A DNA stretch of 57,535 bases from the NCBI GenBank assembly GCA_040754395.1, contig JBFMCL010000022.1:1-57535 (forward strand), read 5' to 3'. Shown here in pieces: positions 1,993 to 55,070 of the stretch. The stretch comes from Nitrospirota bacterium (lineage in GTDB: Bacteria > Nitrospirota > Thermodesulfovibrionia > Thermodesulfovibrionales > SM23-35). How positions within the stretch are numbered: position 1 is the first letter of the stretch; every line of letters starts with the position of its first letter. The position numbers were made by a program, and so were the translations under genes. Under the pieces are notes generated by a model. That model saw nothing but the letters and a program-made list of their open reading frames with translations, searched no databases and had not been told where the DNA came from.

Positions 1993-3891
1993 CAGACTTA
2001 TCGGGCTGCTGCCTGAAAGGACCTCAGCGTTCTCCTTCGACAATACACTCAGAAACGCTTCGACTACATCGGCGTCAAACTGCGTATTCATGCATCTCTT
2101 TAACTCGGATATCGCATATTCAGGTGTGCCACCGGCCCTGTACGGCCGGTCGGATACCATGGAGTCAAATGCATCGGCAACGCAGAGTATCCTCGCAAGT
2201 ACAGGAATTTCATCTGCCTTCAGCCCGTCAGGATATCCCTCCCCGTCTACTCTTTCATGGTGATGCCGTATGACCGGCAGAAGATGCTGCAACTGCTTTA
2301 TCGGCGCCAGTATCTCTTCACCCTTGATCGGATGGAGATTAATCAGTCTTGATTCTTCATCAGAGAGCACATTGGGGTTATCGAGGATAATATCATAGGT
2401 GCCTATTTTCCCTATGTCATGAAAAAGCCCGGCTACCCTGAGCATCTCAATGTCCTCCTTTTCGAGAGACATTTCTTCCGCAATGGCAACTGCATACTTC
2501 GTAACACGCTCGGAATGGCCTTTTGTCCAGGGACTTTTTGCGTCGATTGCATTCACGAATGAATGGATAAGACCTTCATAGAGCCCTTTCAGTTCACGGT
2601 AGGAAAAATCAACCTCCTTGAGCATATTGAAAAACGCATCACGGCTTTCGGTGAGTTTTTTCTGTTTATCTCTAATCTCCGAGATGTCCACAATTGCAAG
2701 TACAAATGACCTTGTCAGGCCTTCGTCGTCAGGAAGAGGAGTGAGGTAAAGAAGGAAATGCTTATTCAACCTCTCTTCGCAATATTCAAAGGCATCCAGT
2801 GTGAAGCTTTTCTCCTGCCGGATATTATCGAAGATGTCCTTTAACTGTTCGCTTTTTATTATTTCATAAGATTTGCCGCTTTTTATTTCTTCGGGCAGAA
2901 TATTGAAGTGAAGGAAAAAGTATTTATTCGCCCTTCTGATACCGAACGCATCATCAAGCAACAGCACACCATAAGGCATGGAATCAAACGTTACCCTCCA
3001 TTCATTCAGTGCCTGTTCGAGCATCTTTCTGTATTTTACACGGGCACTGATGTCCCGTATGATGCTTCTGCTTTGCATGAAATTCCCTTTCTTGTCACAG
3101 ACAGCGGTCGCGCTTTGAAGCACAGGAATATACGACCCGTCTTTCTTCCTTAGATCCAGTTCCAGGTTTTCGATAGTGCCCTTCTCCAGAAATTCCGAAT
3201 ACCTGTCACTGAATCTTCTCCATCCCTCCTCACTGAGAATGTCGCGCAAATTCATCTTTTTTTCCACTTCAGACCTGCTGTAACCGAGCATGTTCAGCCA
3301 GGTGTCATTCACCTCAATAATCAGTCCGCCTGAATCGGTAAAATAATAGCCAGCAGGCGCTTTCTGATAGAAGTCGAGATATTTTCTCTCGCTGTCCTCA
3401 AGCTTCTGTTCAGCATCCTTTCTTTGGGTGACGTCTTGCAGATTGCAATGGATATAGACCGGTTTGCCATTGATGAATTTGCAGCGGGAACTGACCTCAA
3501 CAACGATTTTCTTCGCACTTCTGGTTACAAGCTCGGTCTCGAACTTGGGAAGTTTTTTGCCGGACAGAAGCTGTCCGAAAATATCCCTGCAATGCACGAG
3601 ACTGTCAGGATGAATGATATCACGCATCGAAAGGTGATTGATTTCTCTCCGCTGATACCCAAGCGCGTAAAGCCATGCTTTGTTCACATAGAGAAACCTG
3701 CCGTCAGGCGTCAGCACATGTATGAGGTCATTTGCATTTTCCACAAGGTCCCTGAACATTTCCCTGGTGCTTTTTTTGACGTTCTCCTTCTGGTTTCGCA
3801 ATGATTCCCTCGTAGCAAATTCGGTGTTGCTGAGGCGCAGTTCCAGTATTTCCTGTATGAGCTGTTGTTTTGTCTTGCGTTCGTCCTTCAC
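1987..3891 (-). CDS. PAS-PAS-PAS-HD-GYP cyclic-di-GMP phosphodiesterase
   Basis: Cytoplasmic 634-residue signalling protein. A short coiled coil leads into three PAS domains (about residues 45-160, 165-285 and 290-410), each pair linked by the typical DVTQRK/DISAR type connector, and then an HD-GYP domain (about 435-620). The HD-GYP signature is intact: HDIGKIG near 491, the HHHER block and the EGYPDGL motif near 550. This family hydrolyses c-di-GMP. No transmembrane segment or receiver is visible, so the PAS domains should sense an internal cue such as redox, oxygen or a small ligand. The start is a GTG with a poor ribosome binding site. A REC-PAS protein lies immediately upstream on the same strand. 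Confidence 0.9.
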   Translation of the reverse strand: MKDERKTKQQLIQEILELRLSNTEFATRESLRNQKENVKKSTREMFRDLVENANDLIHVLTPDGRFLYVNKAWLYALGYQRREINHLSMRDIIHPDSLVHCRDIFGQLLSGKKLPKFETELVTRSAKKIVVEVSSRCKFINGKPVYIHCNLQDVTQRKDAEQKLEDSERKYLDFYQKAPAGYYFTDSGGLIIEVNDTWLNMLGYSRSEVEKKMNLRDILSEEGWRRFSDRYSEFLEKGTIENLELDLRKKDGSYIPVLQSATAVCDKKGNFMQSRSIIRDISARVKYRKMLEQALNEWRVTFDSMPYGVLLLDDAFGIRRANKYFFLHFNILPEEIKSGKSYEIIKSEQLKDIFDNIRQEKSFTLDAFEYCEERLNKHFLLYLTPLPDDEGLTRSFVLAIVDISEIRDKQKKLTESRDAFFNMLKEVDFSYRELKGLYEGLIHSFVNAIDAKSPWTKGHSERVTKYAVAIAEEMSLEKEDIEMLRVAGLFHDIGKIGTYDIILDNPNVLSDEESRLINLHPIKGEEILAPIKQLQHLLPVIRHHHERVDGEGYPDGLKADEIPVLARILCVADAFDSMVSDRPYRAGGTPEYAISELKRCMNTQFDADVVEAFLSVLSKENAEVLSGSSPISLL

Positions 3892-31956: not shown

Positions 31957-32159
31957 TATTTCAACAGACCTCAGGATACGACAGAAGAAGACAGTGTAAC
32001 CAGCACCTCACGAATCGTTTCCTGTATGCCTGACGTTCACGACAATCTTGCATTAATCCGCCTCTGCTGATATCCTACAGATACGTATTTTTTCAATCAT
32101 CTCATATGCCTTACATACGGATTTTGTCCGGGGAAAACCAATATCTGGAGGAAATCATC

Positions 32160-32645
32160 ATGAACGCTGTTGAAATGGCAATAAAAATGGAACAGGAAGC
32201 AGTTGATTTTTATAAAAAATGCGCGGAAAAAACGCACAACTCCGTGGGCAAAAAGATGTTTCTGAGCATTGCTGAAGACGAGAGTTACCACATTGCCTGC
32301 GCAAATAAGGTAATCGAGGGCAAGGAATTTCATCCTGCCGAAGTTACCCCTCTGAAGGACATGAAGGCAATCTTCGAACAGAACAAGGATTCCATGCTGC
32401 AACGGGTAGCTTCAACTGCCGATGAACTGGAGGCCCTGAATATCGCGATGAAAATGGAGAAAGAGACGATAGACTTCTACAAAAACGCAGCTGCCCGGGC
32501 CACGAATCCTGCTGAGAAGGCTTTTTTTGAATGCCTCATTAAGGATGAAGAAGAGCATTTTGCGATCTTCCAGAACACACATTCTTTTTTGTCTGATACC
32601 GGTAACTGGTTCATGTGGGAAGAACACAGTATCGTGGAAGGATAA
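32160..32645 (+). CDS. Ferritin-like/rubrerythrin-like diiron protein
   Basis: 161 residues forming a four-helix bundle with duplicated E...ExxH motifs: MEQEAVDFY with EDESYH, and MEKETIDFY with KDEEEH. These are the carboxylate/histidine ligands of a rubrerythrin diiron site; no rubredoxin domain is attached. Probably an NADH-independent peroxide-handling or iron-binding protein of an anaerobe. The ATG follows GGAGGAAATCATC; an earlier in-frame ATG has no support. Confidence 0.87.
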   Translation: MNAVEMAIKMEQEAVDFYKKCAEKTHNSVGKKMFLSIAEDESYHIACANKVIEGKEFHPAEVTPLKDMKAIFEQNKDSMLQRVASTADELEALNIAMKMEKETIDFYKNAAARATNPAEKAFFECLIKDEEEHFAIFQNTHSFLSDTGNWFMWEEHSIVEG

Positions 32646-35896: not shown

Positions 35897-37045
35897 ATGA
35901 AAAAACGTCTCGTACTTGCCGGCGGAGGACACGCACATCTGACAACTCTTCTGAAGCTCAAGGATTACGTGCGGAAAGGTCATCGGGTAACCCTTATAAG
36001 TCCCTCGGAATATCATTATTACTCAGGCATGGGTCCGGGGATGCTGTCCGGCATCTACAAACCTCATGAACTCCGTTTTCATATCAGAAAAACCGCTGAA
36101 GACCGTGGTGCAGATTTCCTCTGTGATCTGGTAGTCAGCATTGATCCTTACAGGCGCATTCTCCATCTGAAGTCAGGGATGAACATTCCATACGATATTG
36201 TATCCTTTAACACGGGCAGTTCGATCAATCAGGATTTCATTGATATCGGAGGGGACAGCATTTTCCCCGTAAAGCCTATAGAGAATCTTCTGGCAGCAAG
36301 AGAACGTATTCTGGGTGAATTCCCCGATATGCCCGGCAACATTCTTGTTGCAGGCGGAGGTCCTGCCGGTGTCGAGATTTCGGCCAATGTCTGGAGACTG
36401 CTCCGTGACAATAATCTGCAGGCTGAGATATATCTGATCAGCGCCGGAACCCTTATGGAAAATTTTCCCAGAAGAGTCCGGAACCTTGTCGTCAACTCTT
36501 TTCGGAAACGAAGAATCATAATCCTTGAGCAGAATGCGGTACAATCTCTGAAAAACGGCAATGCCATGCTCAGCGATGGCAGCACCATGCCATTTGCAGT
36601 CGCCTTTCTTGCTTCCGGTGTAAGACCATCGAATATCTTCAGGAAATCCGGACTGGAAACAGGTGAAGACGGCGGTCTGCTTGTCAATTCCAGTCTTCAG
36701 AGCATCACATATCCTGAAATATTCGGCGGCGGAGACTGTATCAGCTTCCGGGAACAGCCGCTGCCAAAGATAGGAGTGCATGCAGTAAGGCAAAATACAA
36801 TTCTCTACCATAATCTCCTCGCTGCCCTTGAAGGTAGACGCCTCTTGTCTTACAGCCCGCAGACCCAATATCTGCTTATTTTCAACATGGGGGACGGAAA
36901 GGCTATTTTCTGGAGAAACCGGCTGGTGTTTCATGGGAGACTGCCGTTTCTGCTGAAAAATCATATTGACAGAAAATTCATGCGGCAGTTTCAGGTATCC
37001 GGGGAACTTAACGAACCCTATCACTGTGAAAGGAAGGATAAATGA
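35897..37045 (+). CDS. FAD-dependent pyridine nucleotide oxidoreductase (SelD-associated TIGR03169 type)
   Basis: 382 residues, two dinucleotide folds: FAD site at residues 5-12 with the hallmark GGGHAHL, NAD(P) site near 155 with VAGGGPAGVE, and a late FAD motif FGGGDC. The GGGHAHL signature marks the TIGR03169 group, which in many bacteria is fused to the N-terminus of selenophosphate synthetase SelD; here it stands alone. The C-terminus resembles type II NADH dehydrogenases without a membrane anchor being obvious. The last four bases overlap the start of the next gene (ATGA), so both are made together. Confidence 0.85.
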   Translation: MKKRLVLAGGGHAHLTTLLKLKDYVRKGHRVTLISPSEYHYYSGMGPGMLSGIYKPHELRFHIRKTAEDRGADFLCDLVVSIDPYRRILHLKSGMNIPYDIVSFNTGSSINQDFIDIGGDSIFPVKPIENLLAARERILGEFPDMPGNILVAGGGPAGVEISANVWRLLRDNNLQAEIYLISAGTLMENFPRRVRNLVVNSFRKRRIIILEQNAVQSLKNGNAMLSDGSTMPFAVAFLASGVRPSNIFRKSGLETGEDGGLLVNSSLQSITYPEIFGGGDCISFREQPLPKIGVHAVRQNTILYHNLLAALEGRRLLSYSPQTQYLLIFNMGDGKAIFWRNRLVFHGRLPFLLKNHIDRKFMRQFQVSGELNEPYHCERKDK

Positions 37046-37881
37046 GCATAGTTGACTATTTCAAGCCTGTCGATTCAATGACTGCCGATGAGGTACGGGA
37101 CTTTCTCCGTGAGAAGAATCCCGGGGAGTATAATCTCGTTGACGTACGTCAGCCCTCGGAATATGAAAAAGGACACCTCCCCGGCGCCGTTCTGATCCCT
37201 CTGGGGGAGTTGAGGGAGCGCGCCGGTGAACTTAACAGCAGGAAACCCACAATACTCTATTGAACTGCAGGAGTACGCAGCCGTGCTGCAGCTGCGTCAC
37301 TGAAAGATCTTGCGTTCGAAAAGGTATTCAACATGGCTGGCGGTATACGTGCATGGAATGGACTTGTTGCAGAGGGTGAACCTGAAGCAGGGATTGTATA
37401 CTTTCCTGAATCATCAGAACCCCGTGAACTCATTGCATTCGCATGGCTTCTTGAGGAGGGTTCGAGGAAATTTTATTCTGCTCTGCCTTCAATCTTCCCT
37501 GATGAAAAGGACATCAGGATATTCCATGATCTTTCTACAGCCGAAGAGCACCACAAAGAATCTCTTCTTTCACTTTACAAGACCGTATCTGGCCAGGAGC
37601 CGGATGTACACTTTCCGCATTCTGTTCTCGGAGAAAAAATACATGACGATATTATGGAAGGGGGAGTGCACGTTCAGGAGGCACTCCGCTGGGTGACCGG
37701 AAAAAACCTCCACCGGGTCCTTGAAATCTCCATGTCCCTCGAAACAAACGCGTACGACCTCTATCTGAAAATGCATCAGCGCATGGGTGAAGACAGGGCC
37801 AGAAAAGTATTTCTGATGCTCGCAAAAGAAGAAAAACAGCATCTTGCGAGGCTTGCAGCACTGCTGGAGAAAATGACATAA
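37042..37881 (+). CDS. Selenoprotein: Sec-rhodanese fused to ferritin-like domain
   Basis: 279 residues if TGA at 37261-37263 is read as selenocysteine (position 74). Residues 15-105 are a rhodanese domain: VDVRQPSEYEKGHLPGA, then ILY-U-TAGVRSRAAA, where U holds the place of the catalytic cysteine in the C-x-x-G-x-R-S loop, then VFNMAGGIRAWNG. Residues 115-278 form a rubrerythrin-like helical bundle with ligands in LLEEGSRKFY, AEEHH, LETNAYDLY and KEEKQHL. The frame is intact on both sides of the TGA with no other stop, and a SECIS-like hairpin follows. If TGA were a true stop the product would end before its active site. It overlaps the oxidoreductase stop by four bases. Alternative: a single-base nonsense mutation of a TGT/TGC cysteine codon. 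Confidence 0.82.
37272..37301 (+). promoter_or_regulatory. Candidate bacterial SECIS hairpin
   Basis: AGTACGCAGC (37272-37281) pairs with GCTGCGTCACT (37291-37301) over ten base pairs with one bulged C at 37298. The nine-base loop begins CG. It lies within the coding frame; the loop starts 18 bases after the TGA, in the range known for bacterial SECIS, and a G is among the first two loop bases. Confidence 0.7.
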
Positions 37882-53999: not shown

Positions 54000-55070
54000 T
54001 CATTCAGGGATTTTTCTGAAAAGATACACTGCAAGTATTCCGGACAACACGGGGATGCTCCAGGTGGCAAGTACCGGTGGAATTACCCGTGCATATCCCA
54101 TCGAGAGCGTCAATGTATAAAGAAGCCAGTAGACAAAGCTTATGGCTATGCCAAAACCTGCTGCCATAAGACCTCCTCCCACACCGCTCAGCACTGAAAG
54201 TGACATCCCGAGGAGCATCATGAAAAAAATTGCTAGGGGATAGGATATCTTGGAGTTCATATCCACAGAAAGCTTCACATCCCTGATACCGGCGGCTTCC
54301 AGTTTTTTTGTATACCGGTAGAGCTCTTCCAGCCCCATCTCCTCAGGGCTTTTAATCCATTTGCCAAAAAATTCCGGGGACTCGAGGTGCGGATATATCA
54401 TCTGAGGGGTCTTTGTTATCCTTCCTTCTGCAAAATCATAGGTAACAACATCATTCAGCGTCCAGACCCCCTTTTCCGGGACCCATACCGCTTCTCCTGC
54501 CTCTGTCCGGCCCCTGAGGGATCCGTTTCCGGTCGTAAAGATACTTACTCCTTTGGCAATTCCTTTTTCCGGCTCATACAGTCCAATCCTCACAAGTCTC
54601 CCCCCGGTATCCCTGAGCCACAGCGTGCCTTCCTTAAAAGATACCTTATCGTCTTTTTTCATATATGTCATTCTGAACTCAAGCGACCGTTCCGAAAAAT
54701 ACGGGATAATGACCTCTCCTATCAGAAAACCGCACAGGCTCATCAGTAACCCGATGACAATGAACGGGGTAAAAAGTATCTTCAGCCTCCCTCCGGTTGC
54801 TTTCACTGCCACCAGCTCTTTATTGCGGGAAGCCTGGCTGAATATGAACAGACTGCAAATAAGCATTGACATGGGAAGAAGATAGTACAGAAATTTAGGC
54901 AGGTTCAGAATGGCATATTCAGCAATTCTGATAACGGAAAGGTTGCCTTCTGCAAAATTATCAATCTTGTTGACAAGATCAAGAAGGCTGAAAACCATAG
55001 CAATGCCAAAGGCAACTACTCCCAGCATTCCAAGAAATTCCCTGATATAGTAACGAGTGATAATATTCAT
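54000..55070 (-). CDS. lptG: LPS export ABC transporter permease LptG
   Basis: 356 residues with three membrane helices near the N-terminus and three near the C-terminus, enclosing a periplasmic jelly-roll domain (about 130-265). Starts MNIITRYYIREFLGML, overlapping the lptF stop by four bases. Together with LptF and the LptB ATPase (not in the window) it extracts lipopolysaccharide from the inner membrane. An upstream open stretch lies over lptF and is not part of the gene. Confidence 0.9.
   Translation of the reverse strand: MNIITRYYIREFLGMLGVVAFGIAMVFSLLDLVNKIDNFAEGNLSVIRIAEYAILNLPKFLYYLLPMSMLICSLFIFSQASRNKELVAVKATGGRLKILFTPFIVIGLLMSLCGFLIGEVIIPYFSERSLEFRMTYMKKDDKVSFKEGTLWLRDTGGRLVRIGLYEPEKGIAKGVSIFTTGNGSLRGRTEAGEAVWVPEKGVWTLNDVVTYDFAEGRITKTPQMIYPHLESPEFFGKWIKSPEEMGLEELYRYTKKLEAAGIRDVKLSVDMNSKISYPLAIFFMMLLGMSLSVLSGVGGGLMAAGFGIAISFVYWLLYTLTLSMGYARVIPPVLATWSIPVLSGILAVYLFRKIPE

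Follow-up and report, generated by a model that had tools for sequence, protein, structure and literature searches.

Rhodaneses that carry selenocysteine (Sec) are already known, in forms 1 to 5 (PMC13188914), as the sequence-only reading of this DNA had noted. Forms 1, 2 and 4 have Sec in a rhodanese domain (PF00581) within UxxS or UxxG motifs, as does the protein described here, and the UxxG of forms 2 and 4 matches its U74-T-A-G77; the descriptions of these three forms speak of neither a ferritin-like nor a rubrerythrin domain (PMC13188914). A Sec-containing rhodanese is likewise found in form 3 (NF041203, rhodanese_LYCAU) and, joined to a further domain as here, in TsoB (NF045694, Rhodanese/DsbD fusion-like). 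However, the UxxxxU and CxU motifs of TsoB and form 3 are absent from our protein, which reaches neither curated cut-off (22 of 805 bits for NF045694 and 29 of 115 bits for NF041203).

Rhodaneses joined to redox modules that handle persulfides are also known, the module being an iron enzyme in the persulfide dioxygenase-rhodanese fusion (BpPRF, 5ve3) and a flavin enzyme in the CoADR-rhodanese persulfide reductases (3nta, 3icr). The iron partner in BpPRF is mononuclear and has a metallo-beta-lactamase fold, and the flavin partner in the reductases has an active Cys; our protein has a four-helix, diiron-type bundle and Sec instead. This bundle shares the E, ExxH, E, E, ExxH pattern of rubrerythrin and ferritin-like proteins (PF02915; 2fzf, 1vjx), although the protein lacks a rubredoxin domain and has a rhodanese at its N-terminus. 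Thus, the exchange of Sec for Cys in a rhodanese is already known, whereas for its fusion to a diiron domain we found no description: the open literature, to which most subscription papers do not belong, yielded no paper naming a rhodanese-ferritin or rhodanese-rubrerythrin selenoprotein. The novelty claimed for the fusion by the sequence-only reading holds to that extent, with the reservation that form 2 (UxxG, MBM9537886.1) may be the same family, entered in the catalogue under its first domain alone.

Gene, domains and homologues

The fusion gene occupies positions 37042..37881 on the plus strand of the window, by which we mean the whole 57,535-nucleotide stretch that was analyzed. Its frame runs from ATG 37042 to TAA 37879-37881, and the sole other stop is the TGA at 37261-37263 (codon 74), which falls on the rhodanese catalytic position within YUTAGVRSRAAA (motif YUTAGVRS); read as Sec, it gives a protein of 279 amino acids. 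The codons 3' of the TGA, 205 in total, begin with TAGVRSRAAA. Re-reading of the frame confirmed the coordinates, codon count and single in-frame stop reported earlier, as well as the resumption of the same frame into a rubrerythrin-like domain, which is matched by the Pfam Rubrerythrin family. A genome-wide code in which TGA means Trp was rejected, given that homologues carry Cys rather than Trp at this position and that neighboring genes end in TGA (e.g. 35897-37045). Other frames in the window with one TGA, at least 50 codons before it and at least 100 after it occur at 3331, 22348, 22985 and 41649; a further single-TGA frame at 54000, on the minus strand, proved to be two ordinary genes that share one frame by coincidence.

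Both halves of the protein are recognized as known domains. When the TGA is read through, Pfam Rhodanese (PF00581) matches residues 15-106 (37084..37359, plus strand) with an E-value of 1.2e-20 and 74.2 bits against a cut-off of 22.2, spanning position 74, and Pfam Rubrerythrin (PF02915) matches residues 129-275 with an E-value of 9.9e-13 and 49.1 bits against a cut-off of 22.8; the rubrerythrin/ferritin-like four-helix domain extends over 37426..37866 on the same strand. AlphaFold2, supplied with 56 aligned sequences, returned a confident two-domain model (pLDDT 93.6, pTM 0.89). In fold comparisons, residues 10-109 of the model align with rhodaneses (97 residues aligned to 3tp9_A, VIA-align Z 18.2, rmsd 1.7) and residues ~116-279 with ferritin-like bundles (149 residues aligned to 2fzf_A, Z 16.4, rmsd 2.8). 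No chain with both domains was among the PDB matches listed.

We searched 61 genomes, namely the window's own and those of 60 relatives, and recovered ten more copies, complete or almost so, from nine genomes other than the window's; six of these copies have an internal TGA. A scan of named genomes added 80 loci of the fusion, giving a set of 91 homologous loci (90 distinct proteins once identical ones are merged; L086 is identical to the G042 copy). Their catalytic codon takes three forms only, TGA (35 loci), TGC (44) and TGT (12), and none of the 91 contains an in-frame stop besides the catalytic TGA. Homologues therefore carry Cys or TGA where the sequence-only reading had placed the catalytic Cys of the rhodanese and had advised looking for exactly these two states. 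In the nearest relative (G007) the codon is also TGA, and the differences between its gene and ours downstream of the TGA number 28, 21 and 71 at codon positions 1, 2 and 3, respectively (110 codons, p 1e-8). Because the TGA is kept in this relative and the downstream differences fall mostly at third codon positions, the TGA is not a product of chance.

Carriers of the fusion belong chiefly to the Nitrospirota, the Thermodesulfobacteriota and other records labelled deltaproteobacteria; one is a Candidatus Scalindua (Planctomycetota). Among 396 genomes spread over the window's phylum, 51 have the fusion, with 52 matches in all, of which 22 contain TGA. One match in this spread (G293) has a TAG besides the TGA and is perhaps a damaged copy. 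Plasmid and viral collections contained no full-length relatives; their best matches span the rhodanese part, and query coverage stays below 80 percent in every plasmid record. On a maximum-likelihood protein tree, for which the Sec column was masked, parsimony places 10 changes between Sec and Cys, of which well-supported branches force at least four. This repeated natural exchange provides natural pairs for testing what a sulfurtransferase gains by having Sec rather than Cys.

Seven residues of the bundle are candidate diiron ligands (E138, E168, H171, E206, E234, E264 and H267). None of the seven varies among the TGA proteins, and their conservation among the Cys proteins is 91 to 100 percent. 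In a Cys clade around L016, L017 and L021, candidate ligands have been lost (E234, H267 and others), which suggests that these proteins are rhodaneses whose bundle probably binds iron no longer; the iron site is thus apparently not needed everywhere. One genome (G024) encodes both this ligand-losing form and a TGA form.

The SECIS hairpin

Downstream of the TGA, at 37275..37297 on the plus strand, the sequence can fold into a bacterial SECIS (bSECIS) hairpin, ACGCAGC-CGUGCUGCA-GCUGCGU, with 7 pairs, a 9-nt loop and an energy of -9.7 kcal/mol. Published bSECIS elements have an apical loop of 3-9 nt with G in the first two positions, a stem of 4-16 bp, a spacing of 16-37 nt and an energy of at most -7.5 kcal/mol (PMC13188914). 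The hairpin in the window, whose loop CGUGCUGCA has G in position 2 and whose spacing is 18 nt after the TGA, fits all of these values.

The TGA genes have in common, just after the TGA, the sequence CGC AGC CGK NNN GCT GC, which forms a GCAGC / GCUGC hairpin with a loop that begins (C)G and continues with U or G. The Cys genes encode nearly the same peptide, but without this sequence. Thus, codon +5 is CGC in 33 of 35 TGA loci and in 27 of 56 Cys loci (p 3e-6), GCT accounts for 32/35 of the Ala codons at position +9 in TGA loci and for 9/51 in Cys loci (p 4e-12), and 31 of 34 distinct TGA loci, versus 2 of 55 Cys loci, can form all five pairs of the core. We also compared each gene with 200 synonymous recodings of itself, scoring each by its best allowed hairpin, the allowed ones being those within the published bSECIS limits (PMC13188914). 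TGA loci had a mean z of -2.29 and Cys loci one of -0.14 (Mann-Whitney p 6e-12); the hairpin is stronger than synonymous recoding predicts in the TGA set only.

Individual loci depart from the common form in several ways. That of the window itself is one of them: its codon +9 is GCA, its loop has 9 nt and it pairs in a shifted register, and the recoding test for this locus alone gave p 0.025. A compensatory change is seen in the stem of L095 (GUAGCC/GGCUAC), the deviant L149 has an alternative hairpin on GAGCC/GGCUC, and L014 has no allowed hairpin under the simple hairpin model.

Decoding of UGA 74

The window's genome encodes an intact tRNA-Sec with anticodon UCA (C1:231988) and, on contig C11, a SelD (338.6 bits) that has an in-frame TGA of its own, in SSCSGUASK. 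No true match to selA or selB was found anywhere in the organism's assembly. Among the 61 genomes, selA scores above the family cut-off in 56 and selB in 58, and all relatives with a TGA homologue in that search (G007, G014, G024, G031, G042 and G057) have both. Relatives of the same family keep selB and selA in a single block, which also contains genes for a PIN protein and an aminopeptidase together with ispD, ispF and purF and is bordered by serA and an aminotransferase gene; in G004, one of these relatives, there are endonuclease V and dtd-like genes on the far side of selA. Homologues of the latter two genes are found in the window's genome near the end of C1, beside the tRNA-Sec and a transposase. 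Orthologues of the purF, PIN and serA genes of the block were not found in the assembly, the purF and serA queries retrieving only distant paralogues (25 and 36 percent identity) and the PIN query no match. Because the block is missing as a whole, purF included, where a contig ends next to a repeat, and because most of the 61 genomes carry selA and selB, the evidence points to an assembly or binning gap as the best reading of their absence. The sequence-only reading had tied its claim to selA, selB, selC and selD in the same genome: the tRNA-Sec(UCA) and SelD are there, whereas neither selA nor selB is in the assembly, and their syntenic neighbors are missing along with them. A near-complete relative of the same family (G012) has only fragments of selB and selA (on C97 and C105; ~108 and 51 residues), and its 51-residue selA fragment contains a TAA; this organism may be losing Sec decoding, or its genome may be badly assembled.

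Another tRNA of the window's genome lies outside the window (G000:C16:80860-80963; L002 1501-1604) and scores 58.5 bits, over the tRNA-Sec cut-off. With its anticodon GCA, U73 and long variable arm, it is a selC*-type tRNA-Cys of the kind reviewed in PMC7609411, and it was accordingly rejected as a second UGA decoder. Matches to this tRNA type occur in 57 of the 149 genomes searched, the window's own included, and the anticodon is GCA there and in 11 of 11 relatives read. At three loci (L161, L168 and L169, in G003, G011 and G018) a selC*-type tRNA directly adjoins a copy of selB; these copies are 61-71 percent identical to the selB of G007, and the one at L161 scores over the selB cut-off. 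Such selC*/selB pairing is known from the Syntrophobacterales and Desulfobacterales (PMC7609411).

We conclude that the gene almost certainly encodes a selenoprotein in which UGA 74 is read as Sec. A column that holds only Cys or TGA codons, a SECIS specific to the TGA loci, the tRNA-Sec and the Sec-containing SelD all support the Sec first claimed at this codon. The ribosome would read UGA 74 as Sec under the direction of the hairpin immediately downstream, yielding the full 279-residue protein. The selC*-type tRNA offers another way to read through the codon, namely its decoding as Cys by that tRNA together with SelB*, a minor Sec-like tRNA system, and some selC* tRNAs do have a UCA anticodon (PMC7609411). 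Here, however, the anticodon is GCA, in the window's genome as in the relatives read, so that this tRNA would not read UGA, and a canonical tRNA-Sec(UCA) is present; we consider Cys decoding very improbable. Still more remote is the idea that translation really stops at the TGA, or that the TGA is a sequencing error, with the ferritin-like part a separate gene or a pseudogene. The missing selA and selB would fit this explanation, and ATG 37333 could begin a downstream open reading frame of 182 amino acids, but that ATG is preceded by RSRAAA, the conserved remainder of the rhodanese loop, and the TGA is kept in 35 homologous loci, to which the SECIS is specific. Little support is left for either alternative.

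With UGA 74 read as Sec, the known bacterial selenoproteins gain a two-domain architecture. Since annotation that treats the TGA as a stop cuts the gene in two, leaving a 73-residue fragment and a separate ferritin-like open reading frame, the gene is likely mis-annotated in many genomes.

Gene neighborhood and possible function

Immediately upstream of the fusion, and overlapping it by 4 nt (ATGA), lies a gene for an FAD/NAD(P)H oxidoreductase (35897..37045, plus strand) that resembles TIGR03169 (Nterm_to_SelD), with a score of 265.5 bits, under the cut-off of 310. Its relatives in the PDB are the NADH dehydrogenase-like protein YjlD and AIFM2. A homologue of this flavoprotein gene is adjacent to the fusion and on the same strand in 23 of the 91 loci (19 upstream, 4 downstream); the 91 include loci that end too close to the fusion gene for a neighbor to be called. 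In 18 other loci a fatty acid hydroxylase gene takes its place. A real link to the flavoprotein thus exists in some of the family but not in all of it.

The protein thus appears to combine an N-terminal single-domain rhodanese, with Sec in place of the catalytic Cys, and a C-terminal diiron rubrerythrin/ferritin-like bundle. Tentatively, and along the lines of the sequence-only reading, we suggest that it handles persulfide and peroxide. With a persulfide, polysulfide or thiosulfate as donor, Sec74 would take up sulfane sulfur to form a selenosulfide, and the bound sulfur would then be passed on or released as sulfide. The bundle may bind two irons, in which case the diiron site could reduce peroxide or O2, or oxidize the bound sulfur. 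In the lineages that have it, the flavoprotein of the upstream gene might donate electrons; since it is not adjacent in most loci, this electron supply would not be general. Such an enzyme would serve anaerobes in handling reactive sulfur and oxidants. Somewhat unlikely, to our minds, is the stronger proposal that Nitrospirota and Deltaproteobacteria share a widespread new family of selenoenzymes whose Sec-rhodanese and diiron center act jointly on one substrate, for example as a persulfide peroxidase or a sulfur-oxidizing diiron enzyme; if true, it would mean new selenium chemistry beside a non-heme diiron site.

Rhodanese-bound selenium can supply SelD, and the fusion could accordingly be a carrier of selenium, rather than sulfur, that delivers selenide to SelD. 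The neighboring gene lends this some color: its product matches Nterm_to_SelD and is related to the domain that elsewhere is fused to SelD, and the commonest SelD fusions are NADH-dehydrogenase-like (PMC4561486). Yet the flavoprotein falls short of the TIGR03169 cut-off, most fusion homologues have no flavoprotein beside them, and selD lies elsewhere in the genome, on C11; a role in selenium delivery seems to us quite unlikely. Apart from the fusion, the window encodes a second, stand-alone rubrerythrin-like protein at 32106-32645, ~4.4 kb upstream.
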